This document shows, one piece after another, positions 44,430-52,729 of a stretch of DNA of 64,000 nucleotides. The stretch comes from Acidobacteria bacterium SCN 69-37 (GTDB lineage: Bacteria > Acidobacteriota > Vicinamibacteria > Vicinamibacterales > SCN-69-37): contig MEDJ01000013.1 in the NCBI GenBank assembly GCA_001724025.1, positions 1 through 64,000 of the forward strand. The letters are read 5' to 3'. Positions within the stretch are counted from its first letter, which is position 1; each line of letters begins with the position of its first letter. Under the pieces are notes generated by a model. The model made no database searches, was not told the DNA's origin, and saw only the letters and a program-made list of their open reading frames with translations. The position numbers and the translations under genes are program-made.

Positions 44430-46262
44430 CTACAACGCGCACTCGCCTTCGGACGTCTCCGGGGCGAAGGCGTGATCCTCCGCCAGGTCGATGAAGTCCT
44501 CGGGTCTGGCGTCCTCGGGCGCGAGCGGTTCGAGATCGGCCAGGAGCGTCTTGACGGCCTTGAGATCGACGCGGTTGAAGAACGCCGCTGCCGACTCGCC
44601 GTCCTGCCGCTCGGCCGCGAACAGCTCGGCCAGCCGCTCGGCGGCCTGCGGCCCGCGGCGCGCGGGAATCTTCGCCACGAGCCGGCCGAACGTCGCCCCC
44701 TCGACGCCGGCGCCGCCCCCGACCATCACGAAGTACTGGGGGGCCGGACGGCCGTCGACCTTGCGCAGGCTGCCCTGGAACCCCACGGCCGCGATGTGGT
44801 GCTGGCCGCAGCCGTTCGGGCATCCGCTCACCTTGATGTCGAGCGAGGGCGCGAGCGCGATCAGCCGCCTATTGGCGCGGATGTGCTCCTCGACGTATCG
44901 GCCGAGCCCGCGCGACTGCGTCACGGCCAGTTTGCACGACTCGGCGCCCGGGCAGCTCGTCACGTCCGCAATCGTGTCGGCGTCGCCGAGCGGCAGCCCC
45001 ATCGCGCACAGCCGCTCGTACAGCGCCCGCGTCTCCTCCTGCCGGACCCAGCGGAAGACGACGTTCTGTCCCGGGGTCACGCGCGTCTGCCCGTCACCGT
45101 AGGCCAGCGACAGATCGGCCAGCACGCGCATCTGCTCGCTCGACAGGTCGCCGAGCGGCACCGTGGCAATGACGGTCACGTAGCCCGACTGCTTCTGCGG
45201 CCGCACGTTTGTGGCCGCCCACTCCGCGTACTGCGCGTCGGTCACGTCGAAGACCGGGGCGGGTTCGGGATGGATACCGGGACCGCGCACTTCGCCGGCC
45301 GTCACGCGCGTGGCGATGTCGGCCACCGACGGCGCCTCGGGCCGCGGCCACGACGGCGCCTCCTCGTCGGGCAGCGTGGCCGGATCGACAGGCAGCGCCA
45401 CGCCGCCCTCGGCCCGGATCTCGGCCCGCCGCTGCTCGAACTCGGCGACGAACGTCTCCCACCCGAGCTTCTTGATCAGGAACTTGAGCCGGTTCTTGTG
45501 CTTGTTCTTGAAGTCGCCGAGCGCGTGGAACACGCGGACGATCGCCTCGGCCACCTCGAGCATCTCCTCGGCCGGCAGGAACTCGTAGAGCCGGTAGCCG
45601 CTGACGGGCATGATCGAGGTGCTGCCGCCGACGAACACGCGGAAGCCGCGCCGGCCGTCGACGATCAGGCCGACCAGGCCGATGTCGTTGATGGCCACCT
45701 TGATCGTGTCGGTCGGGCCGCCCTCGAACGAGATCTTGAACTTGCGCGGCAGGATGCCCGAGAGCCGGTGACGCAGGAAATAGCGCGTCATGATCTCGGA
45801 GTACGGCGTGACGTCGAACGGTTCGTCGAGCGCCACGCCGGAGAACACGCTCGACGTGATGTTGCGCACAGCCCCGCCGCAGGCTTCGCGCGACGTCATG
45901 CCGGCCTCGGCCAGGCGCCGCATCGCAGGCTCGACGTCGTGCACCTTCACGAAGTGGTACTGCATGTTCTGCCGCGTGGTGATGTGCCCGAACCCGCGCG
46001 AGTAGCGATCGGCGACGTCGGCCATCGCGCGCCACTGATCGACGGTCACCACACCCTGCGGATTCTTGATCCGCAACATGTGGACGTCGTCCTGGCGCTG
46101 GCCGTAGGTGCCGCGCAGCAGGCGGAATCCGCGCCACTGGTCCGGCGTGATTTCACCCCGCTCGAACTTGTCGAGCATGGTGGCGAACTCGTCGATGTCG
46201 GTACCCTTCGCGAACGACGAGCGCGCGCGGCCCACGGTCTTCAGATCGTCCTGGACTGCCAT
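44430..46262 (-). CDS. Siroheme-dependent sulfite (or nitrite) reductase, ferredoxin type
   Basis: 610 residues from ATG 46262. Two ferrodoxin-like half domains and a siroheme/4Fe-4S site: TTRQNMQYHFVKV, SREACGGAVRNIT, TSCPGAESCKLAV (~435) and SGCPNGCGQHHIA (~478), giving four Cys ligands. Family members reduce sulfite or nitrite by six electrons. Siroheme-synthesis genes directly upstream and cysD/cysN across the locus favour assimilatory sulfite reduction; no nitrate reductase is present. Third gene of the minus-strand operon controlled by the Cys-rich leader; its start overlaps the methyltransferase gene by 22 nt. Confidence 0.9.
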   Translation of the reverse strand: MAVQDDLKTVGRARSSFAKGTDIDEFATMLDKFERGEITPDQWRGFRLLRGTYGQRQDDVHMLRIKNPQGVVTVDQWRAMADVADRYSRGFGHITTRQNMQYHFVKVHDVEPAMRRLAEAGMTSREACGGAVRNITSSVFSGVALDEPFDVTPYSEIMTRYFLRHRLSGILPRKFKISFEGGPTDTIKVAINDIGLVGLIVDGRRGFRVFVGGSTSIMPVSGYRLYEFLPAEEMLEVAEAIVRVFHALGDFKNKHKNRLKFLIKKLGWETFVAEFEQRRAEIRAEGGVALPVDPATLPDEEAPSWPRPEAPSVADIATRVTAGEVRGPGIHPEPAPVFDVTDAQYAEWAATNVRPQKQSGYVTVIATVPLGDLSSEQMRVLADLSLAYGDGQTRVTPGQNVVFRWVRQEETRALYERLCAMGLPLGDADTIADVTSCPGAESCKLAVTQSRGLGRYVEEHIRANRRLIALAPSLDIKVSGCPNGCGQHHIAAVGFQGSLRKVDGRPAPQYFVMVGGGAGVEGATFGRLVAKIPARRGPQAAERLAELFAAERQDGESAAAFFNRVDLKAVKTLLADLEPLAPEDARPEDFIDLAEDHAFAPETSEGECAL

Positions 46263-47044
46263 GTGTACTCCTCTACCAATGTCCCGGTGGCCACGGACGC
46301 CACACCGGCCGCCGTCGTCACCACATCCCCGATGACGATCACGCCCGGCAGATCCGGGGCGTCGACGTCATCCCATCGCGCGTGACCCAGGGTCCCGATC
46401 GTCCCGAGCCAGACCCGCTGGCCCGGCCGCGACGCACTCACCACGATTGCCGCGGGGGTCCCGGCGTCCCACCCGGCTCCCACCAGGAACCCGGCGATCT
46501 CGAGACGATGCCCCATCCCCATCAGCACCACCAGCGTCGCCGCGCCGGGCGCCAGCCCGCCGAGCAGCGGCTCGTATGCGTCGGGGCCGTGCCCGCTGAC
46601 CACGACGAATCCCGACGCCACGCCCCTGTGCGTCACCGGAATCCCGGCCAGACCGGGCGCGGCAATCGCACTCGACAGGCCCGGCACGACTTCGAACGGC
46701 ACACCGGCGGCCGACAGGGCCAGGGCCTCCTCGCCGCCACGGCCGAAGACGAACGGATCGCCGGACTTGAGCCGCACCACGCGCTGGCCGAGACGGGCGG
46801 CGGCAATCAGCAGCTCGTTGACGCCCGACTGGGTGAGCGTCTTCTCGCCCTTGCGTCTCGCCACCGACACCAGCTCCGCCCGCGTGGCCAGCGCCAGCAC
46901 GGCCGCCGGGACGAGCCCGTCGTAGAGCACGAGATCGGCGCGCTCCAGCCGATCGATGGCCCGCCGCGTGAGCAGGTCGGGATCGCCGGGGCCGGCGCCG
47001 ACGAGCGAAACCCAGCCGCGCACCGCCGGCCGCGCCTCAGGCAC
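46241..47044 (-). CDS. cobA: Uroporphyrinogen-III C-methyltransferase (SUMT)
   Basis: 267 residues from GTG 47044, overlapping the upstream gene by 8 nt. SUMT motifs: VSLVGAGPGDPDLLTRRA, ADLVLYDGLVP, VVRLKSGDPFVFGRGGEE, VVPGLSSAIAAPGLAGIPVTHRG in pieces. It makes precorrin-2 with two SAM molecules, the first step to siroheme. With the precorrin-2 dehydrogenase upstream it equals a split CysG. The reading frame continues upstream, but that part is the out-of-frame shadow of the preceding gene. Confidence 0.93.
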   Translation of the reverse strand: MPEARPAVRGWVSLVGAGPGDPDLLTRRAIDRLERADLVLYDGLVPAAVLALATRAELVSVARRKGEKTLTQSGVNELLIAAARLGQRVVRLKSGDPFVFGRGGEEALALSAAGVPFEVVPGLSSAIAAPGLAGIPVTHRGVASGFVVVSGHGPDAYEPLLGGLAPGAATLVVLMGMGHRLEIAGFLVGAGWDAGTPAAIVVSASRPGQRVWLGTIGTLGHARWDDVDAPDLPGVIVIGDVVTTAAGVASVATGTLVEEYTWQSRTI

Positions 47045-47645
47045 GGTCGCCCTCCAGCGCCGCGATCCGGTGCGCACACCCGGGCATGCGCCCGCAGTAG
47101 CGCCCCGCAATGACCTCGGCCATCCGCACACGCCGATCGGCCATCGACACGCCCGTCGATCGCCAGACGTCGCGCAGACTGTCGCCCTCGCGCAGCCAGC
47201 CGTCGATCGTCGTGGCGTCCGGCAGCAGGGCGTCGATCCCTTCGCGGAGCAGGCCCGCGAGCGCCGGGGCACGACCGGCCGTGGAAATGGCCACGGCCGC
47301 ATCGCCGCGCCGGATCACGCCGCCGAGATACGCCGTCGCATTGGCCGGATCGTCGACGGCATTGACGAACACGCGACGGGCCGACGCCTCCTGCGCCACC
47401 GCGGCATTCACCGCCGGCGTGGCCGCCGCCACCACGTACCAGACGCCGTCGAGATCGCGCGGCTCGAACGGCCGCTGGTGGACGCGCACGCCAGCGGCCC
47501 TGACGGCCTCGCAGACGTCGGGCGCCACGACGGTCACGTCAGCCCCCACGGCGATCAGCCCCTCGAGCTTGCTCGCCGCCACGGGTCCGGCCCCGACCAC
47601 GAGGACGGCGCGACCCGCCAGCTTGAGGAACACCGGGAACAACAT
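47037..47645 (-). CDS. Precorrin-2 dehydrogenase/sirohydrochlorin ferrochelatase (CysG N-terminal type)
   Basis: 202 residues from ATG 47645 (RBS GGAG, 6-7 nt). MLFPVFLKLAGRAVLVVGAG at the start, NAD motif VVGAGPVAASKLEGL, NAVDDPANATAYLGGVIRRG, AISTAGRAPALAGLLREGI: the Met8p/CysG-N family. It oxidises precorrin-2 and inserts iron to give siroheme for the reductase two genes downstream. First structural gene after the cysteine-codon leader and terminator; earlier in-frame starts lie within that leader and are rejected. Confidence 0.9.
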   Translation of the reverse strand: MLFPVFLKLAGRAVLVVGAGPVAASKLEGLIAVGADVTVVAPDVCEAVRAAGVRVHQRPFEPRDLDGVWYVVAAATPAVNAAVAQEASARRVFVNAVDDPANATAYLGGVIRRGDAAVAISTAGRAPALAGLLREGIDALLPDATTIDGWLREGDSLRDVWRSTGVSMADRRVRMAEVIAGRYCGRMPGCAHRIAALEGDRA

Positions 47646-47687
47646 CTCGTTCTCCACGTGCGATCGGTCCTGCTCCCAGAAACAACA

Positions 47688-47720
47688 AAACCCGCGTGCC
47701 GGCATGCGGCTCGCGGGTTT
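47688..47720 (-). terminator. Intrinsic terminator (attenuator) before the siroheme/sulfite reductase operon
   Basis: On the minus strand AAACCCGCG (47720-47712) pairs with CGCGGGTTT (47696-47688); after an A-A mismatch GCCG (47710-47707) pairs with CGGC (47701-47698). TTTTGTTGTT follows. It lies 43 nt before the first structural gene and 33 nt after the leader ORF, where a read-through decision would be made. Confidence 0.8.
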
Positions 47721-47770
47721 CAGGAGAACACTCTTCGTCTCGACCGTGCTGGTCAACTCCCGTGCGAACC
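47708..47770 (-). promoter_or_regulatory. Candidate antiterminator pairing in the siroheme operon leader
   Basis: GGTTCGC (47770-47764) can pair along its full length (one G-U) with GCGAGCC (47714-47708), and GGG (47761-47759) with CCC (47717-47715). The 3' partner is the upstream arm of the terminator, so the structures exclude each other. The 5' partner is the end of the leader ORF, which a ribosome reaching the stop codon would cover. Confidence 0.6.
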
Positions 47771-47833
47771 GGTATCCGCGTCGTCCATCGGACAACAGGG
47801 GAGACAACAGCACGCAAGGGACGGGCGAATCAT
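47753..47833 (-). CDS. Cysteine-rich leader peptide of the siroheme/sulfite reductase operon
   Basis: 26 residues, MIRPSLACCCLPCCPM followed by DDADTGSHGS. Five Cys codons occur within seven codons (TGC TGT TGT CTC CCC TGT TGT, 47812-47792). It starts 10 nt after a -10-like TACCGT, so the mRNA is leaderless or nearly so. It is followed by an antiterminator segment and an intrinsic terminator. The expected job is regulatory: scarcity of Cys-tRNA stalls the ribosome on the Cys codons and lets the operon be transcribed. Cysteine-codon leader ORFs with this role are known in mycobacteria. The peptide itself probably has no function. Confidence 0.75.
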   Translation of the reverse strand: MIRPSLACCCLPCCPMDDADTGSHGS

Positions 47834-47843
47834 GAACTCACGA

Positions 47844-47872
47844 ACGGTAGCACGGACGCTTCCGGCAGACAA
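47844..47872 (-). promoter_or_regulatory. Promoter of the siroheme/sulfite reductase operon
   Basis: Minus strand: TTGTCT (47872-47867), 17-bp spacer, TACCGT (47849-47844). The leader ATG begins 10 nt after the -10. Confidence 0.45.
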
Positions 47873-48851: not shown

Positions 48852-48881
48852 TTGACACTGTCTGCCGCCGTGGGTTATCAA
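48852..48881 (+). promoter_or_regulatory. Promoter of the cysM-cysD-cysN operon
   Basis: -35 TTGACA (48852-48857, consensus), 18-bp spacer, -10 TATCAA (48876-48881). The leader ORF starts 9 nt after the -10, implying a leaderless or 1-3 nt leader mRNA. Confidence 0.65.
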
Positions 48882-48890
48882 AGAGGGGTC

Positions 48891-48986
48891 GTGTCGTTCG
48901 AATGGAGCACAGCCAGCGGGTGTCCCTGTTGTCGGTCCTGTCAAGACGGGCCTGACCCGATGGCGCACGCGACCACGATGTTCTGA
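48891..48986 (+). CDS. Cysteine-rich leader peptide of the cysM-cysD-cysN operon
   Basis: 31 residues from GTG 48891: VSFEWSTASGCPCCRSC then QDGPDPMAHATTMF. Cys codons fall at 48921, 48927, 48930 and 48939 (four within seven codons). It is followed by an antiterminator segment and a canonical terminator before the structural genes. Sequence and layout parallel the leader of the divergent arm, although the peptides are not homologous, so both probably arose by selection for Cys-codon content. Predicted role: stalling on Cys-tRNA shortage permits read-through. Confidence 0.75.
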   Translation: MSFEWSTASGCPCCRSCQDGPDPMAHATTMF

Positions 48987-49027
48987 CACCGAAGATCCGG
49001 TCGCCCAACGGCGCCCATCGCAGGCCC
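48948..49027 (+). promoter_or_regulatory. Long-range antiterminator in the cysM leader
   Basis: GGGCCTG (48948-48954) pairs perfectly with CAGGCCC (49021-49027); CGATGG (48958-48963) pairs with CCATCG (49015-49020); CGC (48964-48966) pairs with GCG (49011-49013). The 3' strand takes GCCC (49024-49027) from the terminator stem, so the structures are mutually exclusive. The 5' strand starts 7 nt after the last Cys codon and is inside the ORF, so a ribosome going to the stop would block it. Confidence 0.7.
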
Positions 49028-49055
49028 GGAACCTCGTCAGGTTCCGGGCTTTTTT
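49024..49055 (+). terminator. Intrinsic terminator (attenuator) before cysM
   Basis: GCCCGGAACCT (49024-49034) pairs perfectly with AGGTTCCGGGC (49039-49049) around a 4-nt loop, followed by six T (49050-49055). It is a textbook Rho-independent terminator 27 nt upstream of the structural gene, not downstream of one, which marks it as an attenuator. Confidence 0.9.
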
Positions 49056-49082: not shown

Positions 49083-50456
49083 ATGGCTCATTCGACACTC
49101 GCCTCACCGTCGGTACGCGGATCGTCGCTCCTCGATCAGATCGGCCACACGCCGCTCGTCCGCCTGCCACGCTTCGAGCCGCGGCCCGGGGTCGAGATCT
49201 ACGCGAAGCTCGAGATGCGCAATCCGGGCGGCTCGGTCAAGGATCGGGCCGCGCTGGCGATGATGCTCGAGGGCGAGCGGCTGGGCCGGCTCGGCCCGGG
49301 CCGGATCCTGCTCGATGCGACGTCGGGCAACACCGGCATCGCCTACGCCATGCTCGGTGCGGCGCGCGGACACCGCGTGCGGCTCTGCGTGCCGGCCAAC
49401 GTCACGCCCGAACGCAAGCGGCTCCTGCGCGTCTACGGCGCGGACCTCGTGTTCACCGATCCGATGGAAGGATCGGACGGCGCGATCCGGCAGGTGCGGG
49501 CCATCTTCGAGCGCGATCCGCACCGGTACTACTACCCCGACCAGTACAGCAACCCGGCCAACTGGCAGGCGCACTTCAACGGTACGGGCGTCGAGATCCT
49601 GGAGCAGACGCAGGGACGCGTCACGCACTTCGTGGCGGGCCTCGGCACGAGCGGGACGTTCATGGGCACGGGCCGGCGGCTGCGGCAGGACAAGCCGGAC
49701 GTCCGGCTGATCTCGGTCCAGCCCGACACGCCGCTGCACGGGCTCGAAGGACTCAAGCACATGGAGTCGGCCATCGTGCCGGCCATCTACGACCCGACGC
49801 TGGCCGACGAGGATCTGCGCGTCGATACCGAAGACGCGCATCACCTGATCCGGCGGCTGGCGCACGAGGAGGGCCTGTTCGTCGGTCCCTCGAGTGGCGC
49901 CGCACTGTCGGCAGCCATCCGGCTGGCGGCCGGCCTGACCGACGCCGTCATCGTCGCGATTTTCCCGGACGGCGGCGACCGGTATCTCTCGGATGCACTG
50001 TGGGATCAGTCCAGGGACGACGAGGAGACGAGCGTGGCCGATGCCCCCGTGCACGTGAAGATCACAGAAGACCAGCTGACGGCGATCCGCCGGCACGGCG
50101 CCCGCATTTATCCCGACGAGTGCTGCGGCGCGCTGCTCGGCCCCAAGGCCGGCGAGGTCACCGAGGCCTACGCGCTCGACAACACCTTCCCCGACGGCCG
50201 CCGGCGTCGGTTCCTCGTGGGCCCCGACGAATACCGGCGTGCCGAGGCGCGCGCGGCCGACACGGGCCTCCAGTTGCTCGGTTTCTATCACTCGCACCCG
50301 GATCACCCGGCCGAGCCGTCGCAGTTCGACCTCGATCACGCCTGGCCGAACCTCAGCTATCTGATCGTGTCGGTCCGGCAGGGTCAGCCGAAGGAAGCGC
50401 GGTCGTGGCGCTTGAAGGCCGACAGGTCCGCGTTCGACGAAGAGTTCGTCTGCTAG
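49083..50456 (+). CDS. Fusion of CysM-type cysteine synthase and Mec-type JAMM (M67) peptidase
   Basis: 457 residues. Residues 1-~315 are a PLP cysteine synthase: SLLDQIGHTPLVRL, Lys53 in NPGGSVKDRAA, TSGNTG (80-85), GLGTSGTFMGTGRRLR; the P..GLEGLKHMESAIVP region resembles mycobacterial CysM. Residues ~330-457 form a JAMM domain: YPDECCGALLGP, then GFYHSHPDHPAEPSQFDLDH with HxH...S..D zinc ligands. In mycobacteria, CysM adds O-phosphoserine to the sulfur-carrier thiocarboxylate CysO and Mec releases cysteine from CysO-Cys; here both enzymes are one polypeptide. No CysO-like carrier is in the window. First gene after the cysteine leader; cysD follows. Confidence 0.88.
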   Translation: MAHSTLASPSVRGSSLLDQIGHTPLVRLPRFEPRPGVEIYAKLEMRNPGGSVKDRAALAMMLEGERLGRLGPGRILLDATSGNTGIAYAMLGAARGHRVRLCVPANVTPERKRLLRVYGADLVFTDPMEGSDGAIRQVRAIFERDPHRYYYPDQYSNPANWQAHFNGTGVEILEQTQGRVTHFVAGLGTSGTFMGTGRRLRQDKPDVRLISVQPDTPLHGLEGLKHMESAIVPAIYDPTLADEDLRVDTEDAHHLIRRLAHEEGLFVGPSSGAALSAAIRLAAGLTDAVIVAIFPDGGDRYLSDALWDQSRDDEETSVADAPVHVKITEDQLTAIRRHGARIYPDECCGALLGPKAGEVTEAYALDNTFPDGRRRRFLVGPDEYRRAEARAADTGLQLLGFYHSHPDHPAEPSQFDLDHAWPNLSYLIVSVRQGQPKEARSWRLKADRSAFDEEFVC

Positions 50457-50468
50457 TGACGCATCATC

Positions 50469-51410
50469 ATGTACACCGCTGAATCCGCACGTCCCCGCTC
50501 GGCGCCCGTGCCGCGTCTCGATCACCTGCGCGCGCTCGAGGCCGAGAGTATCGCCATCATGCGCGAGGTCGTGGCCGAGTTCGAACGGCCCGTCATGCTC
50601 TACTCGATCGGCAAGGACTCGTCGGTCCTGCTGCGCCTGGCCCAGAAGGCGTTCCATCCCGGACCGATTCCGTTCCCGCTGCTCCACATCGACACGACGT
50701 ACAAGTTCCGCGAGATGATCGAGTTCCGCGATCGCTACACGCGGGAGATCGGCGCGCGGCTCATCGTCCACACGAACACGGACGCGATCGCGGCCGGCAC
50801 GCAGCCGTTCGCCGTCGGCACGCAGCGGTGCTGCGGGCTGTTGAAGACGCGGGCACTGCTCGACGGACTCGAGGCCGGCGGCTACGACGCCGCGTTCGGC
50901 GGCGCGCGGCGCGACGAGGAACGATCGCGCGCCAAGGAGCGGGTCTTCTCGCTGCGCGACGAGAAGGGGCAGTGGGATCCGAAGCGCCAGCGGCCCGAAC
51001 TCTGGCACCTGCTGAACGGGCGCGTGCGCAAGGGCGAGAGCATCCGCGTGTTCCCGCTCTCGAACTGGACCGAGATCGACGTGTGGCAGTACATCCACGA
51101 GGAACAGATCCCGGTGGTGCCGCTCTACTTCGCCGAACCGCGCGAGGTCGTGGTGCGCGGCACCTCGCTGATTCCCGTCGAGCAGCCGTTCGTGCCGCTG
51201 CTGCCCGGCGAGCGGCCGCAGCTGGTGATGTGCCGCATGCGCTCGCTCGGCTGCTCGCCCTGCACCGGGGCGATCCGCTCGGAGGCGACCACGGTCCCGC
51301 AGATCATCGAGGAACTGGTCAGCGTGCGCCAGTCCGAACGGCAGCTGCGCGTGATCGATCACGACCAGGACGGCTCGATGGAAATCAAGAAGCGGGAAGG
51401 GTACTTCTGA
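50469..51410 (+). CDS. cysD: Sulfate adenylyltransferase small subunit
   Basis: 313 residues from ATG 50469. PP-loop ATP pyrophosphatase motif [20 protein letters not shown], then [37 protein letters not shown], the [11 protein letters not shown] region and CSPCTGA; ends KKREGYF, the normal CysD terminus. With CysN it activates sulfate to APS in the cytosol. Twelve nt after the CysM-Mec gene; its TGA overlaps the cysN ATG. Confidence 0.97.
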
Positions 51411-52729
51411 TGGTCGGGACGGGCGCCACCGAGTCGACCCTCCTCCGCATCTGCACGGCCGGCAGCGTCGACGACGGCAAGAGCACGCTGATCGGCCGGC
51501 TGCTGTACGACTCGCAGTCGGTCTACGAGGACCAGCTGCTGTCGGTCGAGAAGGCCTCGAAGAACCGGACGGCCGGGCCGATCGACTTCTCCCTGTTCAC
51601 TGACGGCCTGCGCGCCGAGCGCGAGCAGGGGATCACGATCGACGTCGCCTACCGGTACTTCGCCACGAGCCGGCGCAAGTTCATCCTGGCCGACACGCCG
51701 GGCCACGAACAGTACACGCGCAACATGGCGACGGGCGCCTCGACGGCCGACGTGGCGATCCTGCTCGTCGATGCGCGGCACGGTCTGCTCGACCAGTCGC
51801 GCCGGCACGCACGCATCGCGTCGCTGCTCGGCATCCGGCACTTCGTCCTGGCGGTCAACAAGATGGACCTCATCGACTTCGATCGCGAGGTCTTCGAGGA
51901 CATCACGTCGGGCTTCGCGAAACTGCTCGGCGGGGCGGCGCTGCACCCGATTCCGATCAGCGCGCTGCACGGCGACAACGTCATCACGCGGAGCGATCGC
52001 ACGCCCTGGTTCGAGGGCCCGAGCCTGCTCGAATACCTCGAGACGGTCGACGTGGACCAGCAGGCGCCGCGCGGCCCCTTCCGCATGCCCGTGCAGCTGG
52101 TGATCCGTCCCAACCAGGATTTCCGCGGATATGCGGGACAGATCCTGTCCGGCACGGTCCGCGTCGGCGACACGATCACCACGTGGCCGTCGGTCCGGTC
52201 GAGCCGGGTGAAGCGCATCGTGACGTGGGGCGGCGATCTCGACGAGGCGTTCGCGCCCATGTCGGTGACACTGGTGCTCGAGCAGGAGCTCGACATCAGC
52301 CGCGGCGACGTGTTCGTCGACGGCCCCATCCACATGGGCCGCCGCTTCGAGGCCGACGTCGTCTGGATGGACGAGCGGCCGCTCGAACCCAATCGTCTCT
52401 ACGTGCTCAAGCACGCGTCGGGCACGACGACCGCGCAGGTCGATACGCGCCTGCTGCTCAACGACGTCGGCCGCATCACGGTCGAGACGTCGCGCGCGAT
52501 CATCTTCGACCGGTACAGCGAGCAGCGCGGCACCGGCGCCTTCATCCTGATCGAGCCGACGACGAACTTCACCGCGGGCGCCGGCATGATCGCCGCGCCA
52601 CTGGCGGAGCAGACGGCCGGCAGCCACCCGGGTGTGGCCGAGCGGCTCGCGCAGATCGCCCGGTCCGCCCACTCCGAGGGCGAGGCCATCGAAGCCGTCC
52701 GGCGCGTGCTGGAGGAGATGCTGACGTAG
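51410..52729 (+). CDS. cysN: Sulfate adenylyltransferase large subunit (GTPase)
   Basis: 439 residues from ATG 51410 (overlap TGATG). EF-Tu-like GTPase: GSVDDGKSTLIGRLLYDSQ (P-loop), TDGLRAEREQGITIDVAYRY (switch I), DTPGHEQYTRNM, VNKMDLIDF. There is no APS-kinase (CysC) fusion; the protein ends after the third domain. The GTPase drives APS synthesis by CysD. Last gene of the operon. Neither an APS/PAPS reductase nor a separate cysC is in this window, so the APS reduction step must be encoded elsewhere. Confidence 0.96.
   Translation: MVGTGATESTLLRICTAGSVDDGKSTLIGRLLYDSQSVYEDQLLSVEKASKNRTAGPIDFSLFTDGLRAEREQGITIDVAYRYFATSRRKFILADTPGHEQYTRNMATGASTADVAILLVDARHGLLDQSRRHARIASLLGIRHFVLAVNKMDLIDFDREVFEDITSGFAKLLGGAALHPIPISALHGDNVITRSDRTPWFEGPSLLEYLETVDVDQQAPRGPFRMPVQLVIRPNQDFRGYAGQILSGTVRVGDTITTWPSVRSSRVKRIVTWGGDLDEAFAPMSVTLVLEQELDISRGDVFVDGPIHMGRRFEADVVWMDERPLEPNRLYVLKHASGTTTAQVDTRLLLNDVGRITVETSRAIIFDRYSEQRGTGAFILIEPTTNFTAGAGMIAAPLAEQTAGSHPGVAERLAQIARSAHSEGEAIEAVRRVLEEMLT

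Follow-up and report, generated by a model that had tools for sequence, protein, structure and literature searches.

A candidate cysteine-responsive transcription attenuator with a near-leaderless cysteine-rich reading frame upstream of cysM-mec, cysD and cysN in Acidobacteriota

Leader open reading frames (ORFs) with cysteine codons were predicted in mycobacteria without conserved terminator hairpins (Seliverstov 2005, PMC1262725). Mycobacterial leaderless polycysteine short ORFs have been reported as Cys-responsive attenuators (Canestrari et al. 2020, PMID 32181921, as cited in PMC9094748 and PMC13236596), and these poly-Cys leaders are described as acting by translation attenuation (PMC13236596). 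In Rhodobacterales, the uORFC-8-2 motif before cysS, which has two Cys codons, is a predicted ribosome-mediated transcription attenuator (Brewer et al. 2021, PMC8632094). Almost none of the attenuators predicted in Acidobacteria has been assigned a function (Naville and Gautheret 2010, PMC2965389). The initial annotation of the DNA studied here held that Cys leader ORFs are known in mycobacteria and that none was known to be described for Acidobacteriota; this agrees with the part of the literature that was searched, in which no Acidobacteriota Cys-leader attenuator was found, an absence that is not proof.

The window, which is the whole 64-kb stretch of DNA that was analysed, contains a leader that is very probably a cysteine-responsive, ribosome-mediated transcription attenuator located before cysM-mec, cysD and cysN, and equivalent predicted attenuators precede several sulfur-assimilation operons across the order. 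The parts of the leader and the genes behind it are as follows, with peptides given up to their stop codons.

48852..48881, plus strand: sigma-70-type promoter, TTGACA, 18 nt, TATCAA (-35 at 48852-48857, -10 at 48876-48881; the hexamers align with identical ones in L004, a relative of the same genus)
48891..48986, plus strand: leader ORF with GTG start nine bases past the -10, near-leaderless, peptide VSFEWSTASGCPCCRSCQDGPDPMAHATTMF, stop TGA at 48984-48986
48921..48941, plus strand: putative regulatory Cys codons, TGT CCC TGT TGT CGG TCC TGT (Cys codons at 48921, 48927, 48930 and 48939)
48934..48952, plus strand: strand 1:2 hairpin, GGUCC..GGGCC, candidate pause or anti-antiterminator hairpin, from the minimum free energy (MFE) fold of the whole leader; the counterpart helix is kept across the order
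48948..48966, plus strand: predicted antiterminator 5' strand (strand 2), GGGCCTGACCCGATGGCGC, from duplex energies and ribosome-footprint folding
49011..49027, plus strand: predicted antiterminator 3' strand (strand 3), GCGCCCATCGCAGGCCC, overlapping the terminator 5' arm, from duplex energies and footprint folding
49022..49055, plus strand: intrinsic terminator, 3:4 hairpin at 49022-49051 followed by TTTTTT
49083..50456, plus strand: cysM-mec fusion, PLP cysteine synthase with JAB/Mec domain, first structural gene (Pfam PALP 1.2e-68, Prok-JAB 4e-24; NCBIfam cysM is the best match but below cut-off)
50469..51410, plus strand: cysD, sulfate adenylyltransferase small subunit (NCBIfam CysD above cut-off)
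51410..52729, plus strand: cysN, sulfate adenylyltransferase large subunit (NCBIfam CysN TIGR02034 above cut-off)

The promoter, GTG ORF, Cys codons, and 11-bp terminator with six T described in the initial annotation are all present base for base. The terminator hairpin has 13 pairs, including A-U and G-U at its base, and 11 of these run uninterrupted from 49024. The competing helix proposed between 48948-48966 and 49011-49027 is also real. It is interrupted by a bulged C and claims, as stated, four bases of the 11-bp stem, or six of the 13-bp stem, the contested bases being AGGCCC. By duplex energies, the pairing of strand 2 with strand 3 beats shuffled sequences (z -4.1), with the leader's own strand 3 being the best of 64, and the leader as a whole folds more stably than dinucleotide shuffles (z -2.9). 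The whole-leader MFE fold pairs the region of the 1:2 hairpin; the hairpin is absent, that is, not favoured, in the folded transcript ending at 49030. A scan of both strands of the window for a promoter, near-leaderless start, and Cys cluster in combination gave a single match, the site at 48852-49055. An alternative ATG frame, MEHSQRVSLLSVLSRRA, was rejected as the leader ORF, being not conserved in L004.

The proposed mechanism begins with RNA polymerase, which, judging by the promoter spacing, would start approximately 2-4 nt before the GTG, such that the leader ORF would be translated from a leaderless or near-leaderless 5' end. When charged tRNA-Cys is scarce, the ribosome is expected to stall in the CPCC stretch and to cover strand 1, leaving strand 2 free. 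Free strand 2 would then pair with strand 3 and remove the foot of the terminator 5' arm, a pairing and competition that were both computed, and with the terminator prevented polymerase would read on into cysM-mec, cysD and cysN. When charged tRNA-Cys is plentiful, the ribosome would clear the Cys codons and unwind strand 2 as strand 3 is being transcribed; behind the passing ribosome, strand 2 would probably re-pair with strand 1 and the terminator would form.

A search with the CysM-Mec protein identified an 86% identical locus in the same genus (L004), loci with 78-79% identity in two other genera of its family, and a relative of the window's cysM-mec in a Luteitalea MAG. Equivalent leaders lie upstream of the relatives' genes, encoding VSLIWSVASGCPCCRTCQYGPARAALAT in L004, MSFCCNGAAVCLCCRPTKVCRGRTRP in L065, and a partial peptide ending in RSAAACLCCRPLEGLPLACATKNS in L005, whose contig begins within the leader ORF, and behind each comes a GGCCCGGA..TTCCGGGC terminator with a T-tract. 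The Cys cluster, frame, promoter, antiterminator, and terminator are kept across the family leaders. The inner antiterminator helix covaries, reading GATGG/CCATC in the window, GTTGG/CCAAC in L005, GGGCGC/GCGCCC in L065, and GGCGCT/AGCGCC in L004, and the outer helix reads GGGCCTG/CAGGCCC in the window, GGTCTGTC/GACAGGCC in L065, and GGGTCTG/CAGGCCC in L005; these changes come from side-by-side reading by eye and are not a tool count, as the family alignment (A4) misaligns strands 2 and 3. Among the CysM-Mec homologues of other Acidobacteria that were read or scanned, none was found to be preceded by such a leader. Near the gene in two relatives, L066 and L232, lie additional ThiS/MoaD- and ThiF-like parts, an arrangement reminiscent of the mycobacterial CysO-Mec cysteine pathway. 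An Acidobacteriota-like CysM-Mec (63% identity) also occurs in L014, a contig titled as a Bifidobacterium breve MAG, and the label of this record looks wrong.

A cysD search was performed over 162 genomes of the order and the DNA upstream of the hits was read. Most upstream regions with a close cysD contain Cys-rich short ORFs, for example MFLSSWPCACCCTCTRTVKVPAPSVLPFD. Both a leader and a terminator were present in 66 of 79 scanned regions, and removal of one duplicate and one false case left 64 leaders. In these, 30-63 nt separate the end of the Cys cluster from the stop and 23-55 nt separate the stop from the terminator; the 1:2 hairpin is placed after the Cys run, and strand 2 also pairs with a strand 3 that overlaps the terminator 5' arm. 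This arrangement bears on the foremost alternative, translation attenuation as in mycobacteria, in which a stalled ribosome would open a structure hiding the ribosome-binding site of the first gene and the terminator would be incidental. The mycobacterial leaderless poly-Cys short ORFs are described as working in this way, but an intrinsic terminator and U-tract lie between leader and gene in those 66 regions, strand 3 overlaps the terminator 5' arm, and pairing to the gene start is not needed to explain the data, which makes this alternative improbable beside transcription attenuation.

Cys makes up 19.7% of leader residues (347 of 1762) in the 64 leaders with an intrinsic terminator. TGT (223) and TGC (124) are both used, and the 347 in-frame TGY triplets compare with 92 and 29 in the shifted frames, which argues for selection on codons rather than for a repeat. 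The genes behind the leaders, which mostly belong to sulfur assimilation, include cysD, siroheme synthase (many cases), cysH, CysK/CysM-type cysteine synthase, TauE/SafE exporters, an NMT1-type substrate-binding protein, a porin, and an ATP-grasp ligase. It is very unlikely that the nascent Cys-rich chain acts as an arrest peptide that senses a metal or thiol in place of a ribosome sensing Cys-tRNA: CPCC-like motifs could in general bind metal, but the number of Cys residues (3-8 per leader) and their spacing vary freely, no other residue is fixed, and the downstream genes are those of sulfur assimilation and not metal genes. A Cys leader also flags genes with a possible place in cysteine metabolism, such as the ligase and the porin. 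The ATP-grasp ligase (RimK-like; L243:365-1321 and L245:381-1625) may be a thiol or peptide ligase working in cysteine metabolism. The porin, of the Porin_O_P family (L241:1199-2560, minus strand), perhaps serves a sulfur source; of all the antiterminators in the set, that of its leader is the weakest (z +1.2). A very Cys-rich leader-like ORF at L168:1487, CSCCCSCLARAACCCACMRPATGW, has no terminator that could be found and might act on translation as in mycobacteria.

Transcription normally starts approximately 7 nt after the -10. Among the 58 leaders with an assignable promoter, 53 carry an ATG or GTG in frame with the Cys codons 5-13 nt past the -10, compared with one in each of the other frames, and because of this spacing the leader mRNAs look leaderless or nearly so. 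In alignment A3, the 1:2 hairpin and terminator show standard pairs in 96.7% of cells, with changes on both sides in six pairs and 15 cells; 0/500 shuffles scored as high, a count that is not a probability because the order genomes, mostly MAGs, are related by descent. The antiterminator, for which the pairing scheme was drawn by hand from one leader, pairs in 80.9% of cells across the order leaders versus 20-55% for slid versions. Its covariation score is 0.223 versus 0.181 in shuffles (2/500), and its both-side changes are barely above shuffles, 280/500 of which reach its pair count. The terminator and pause hairpin are thus conserved with compensatory changes, and the same holds, more weakly, for the antiterminator. 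In duplex energies, strand 2 of the 64 leaders averages -27.9 kcal/mol with its own strand 3 versus -23.5 kcal/mol with the strand 3 of other leaders, and the pairing beats dinucleotide shuffles at p<0.05 in 70% of them (mean z -2.3). Failure of relatives to keep the Cys codons or the two alternative stems had been named in advance as grounds for rejection; instead, all are kept in the family and across the order. The conserved RNA stretches beyond the Cys codons could also be expected of a metabolite riboswitch or a protein-bound attenuator (responding, for example, to O-acetylserine, SAM, or a CysB-like factor) with an accidental ORF, but the leader matches no Rfam family even at E<=1, there is strong constraint on the ORF frame and start codon, and three competing helices explain the conserved stretches, so that this alternative deserves no more credence than the arrest peptide.

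Ribosome-mediated attenuation was modelled by excluding the bases of the ribosome footprint from folding for different positions of the A-site. In the window leader, the probability of the antiterminator was 1.0 for the outer and 0.87 for the inner helix with the A-site up to codon 15 (Arg15); the outer helix fell to 0.09 with the A-site at codon 17 (Cys17) and to 0 beyond, and the inner helix was lost from codon 20. Across the 64 leaders, the terminator 5' arm was paired at 0.78 with a stalled ribosome versus 0.34 with the ribosome four codons past the last Cys. Footprint folding thus reproduces the logic of trp-type attenuation tuned to Cys-tRNA that had been proposed from the sequence, and supports it as a model. 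The further proposal that a ribosome reaching the stop would cover strand 2 stands in part: the stop lies 18 nt past the 3' end of strand 2, such that a ribosome at the stop is not squarely on that strand, but strand 2 would be disrupted in transit. In the ribosome-free window leader, the antiterminator is favoured in the transcript ending at 49030, which implies that basal termination needs translation or kinetics outside the model. Equilibrium folding of the full-length transcript gives the terminator in all cases; switching must therefore depend on kinetics, as it does in trp.

A covariance model (R1) was built from 23 order leaders, none of them from the window's family, and it retrieves the window leader (E 1.2e-4) though trained without it. 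R1 sites are present in 111/162 order genomes at E<=0.05, with two to five in several genomes. At E<=1e-3 over 396 phylum genomes, R1 sites occur in 22 order genomes, 3 genomes from a sister family within the class, and 3/~345 others, which lie outside the class; two of the sister-family loci encode peptides ending in MCCCCQAPGAPGVFGHVAFEGLSS and MRGACCCRARVAPGHGRPALITLTP. R1 itself contains Cys codons, and the Cys richness of its matches is therefore partly circular; the start-codon frame test, downstream genes, and family leaders are not. A pattern from the window's own genome, TGYNNNTGYTGYCGN, was discarded as a leader finder, with 105 matches versus 106 for the reversed control and so no excess. 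That a constitutive terminator merely adjoins a chance Cys-rich ORF can be given almost no credence: GC-rich genomes yield many Cys-rich frames, and the window has 17 windows of at least four Cys in nine codons, but the fixed promoter-start-Cys-terminator geometry kept across dozens of genera contradicts chance for the order as a whole. It is likely that the order (apparently Vicinamibacterales), and probably the class, co-regulates sulfur assimilation through ribosome-sensed leaderless poly-Cys transcription attenuators. These would make up the first family of amino-acid attenuators to be assigned in Acidobacteriota and would be an independent parallel to the mycobacterial system, working at the level of termination and not of translation. 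This would amount to a testable order-wide cysteine regulon and a set of unannotated short ORFs, and would provide sequence evidence for leaderless translation in Acidobacteriota.

A second Cys leader, missing from the initial annotation, precedes the divergent siroheme synthase and sulfite reductase genes of the window.

47844..47872, minus strand: weak promoter, TTGTCT, 17 nt, TACCGT
47753..47833, minus strand: second Cys leader ORF, peptide MIRPSLACCCLPCCPMDDADTGSHGS, ATG 10 nt past the weak -10 TACCGT, upstream of siroheme synthase / sulfite reductase
47679..47719, minus strand: terminator and T-rich tract
44430..47645, minus strand: siroheme synthase N-domain, uroporphyrinogen methyltransferase, and nitrite/sulfite reductase (Pfam NAD_binding_7, TP_methylase, NIR_SIR), under the second leader

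Its candidate antiterminator, 47757-47772 with 47707-47726, is weaker by duplex energies (z -1.2, p 0.13). No convincing Cys leader was seen upstream of the window genome's own cysH and two TauE loci, and the count of Cys leaders for this genome is a minimum. The cysH gene lies elsewhere (L264 around 1384-1400; G000 contig C7), and because it has a TACCGT -10-like site 9 nt before its ATG, the genome may use leaderless mRNAs more widely.

The Acidobacteriota leaders resemble the mycobacterial poly-Cys ORFs in that a leaderless Cys-rich short ORF heads cysteine and sulfur operons, with several per genome, and the near-leaderless start, a mycobacterial trait, recurs here by promoter spacing (53/58). 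Mycobacteria belong to a different phylum and the likeness lies in layout, with no sequence relation claimed; unlike the mycobacterial leaders, which are described as acting in translation control and in which no conserved terminator hairpins were seen, the Acidobacteriota leaders analysed have an intrinsic terminator and a predicted antiterminator. They share with uORFC-8-2 of Rhodobacterales the predicted ribosome-mediated transcription attenuation, tandem Cys codons, and an intrinsic terminator, but uORFC-8-2 has two Cys codons inside the first stem and occurs only before cysS in Alphaproteobacteria, whereas the Acidobacteriota leaders have 3-8 Cys codons, sulfur assimilation genes, and a near-leaderless start. 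With the enterobacterial trp/his/leu attenuators they have in common regulatory codons, predicted 2:3 and 3:4 helices, and an intrinsic terminator, and a candidate 1:2 helix is kept in the leaders of the order although not favoured in the truncated window transcript; they differ in the amino acid, the near-leaderless start, a stop past strand 2, and the predicted control of many operons at once, and, unlike in trp, the window antiterminator is also predicted by folding to form without a ribosome. As read from sequence and folding models, the leaders combine a short ORF with a run of end-product codons, an intrinsic terminator, and a mutually exclusive antiterminator that would use the terminator 5' arm, as in trp-type systems. 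The window leader is accordingly classed under ribosome-mediated transcription attenuation, as a variant not described before in Acidobacteriota within the searched literature, and it represents an apparently independent case of poly-Cys sensing coupled to transcription termination.
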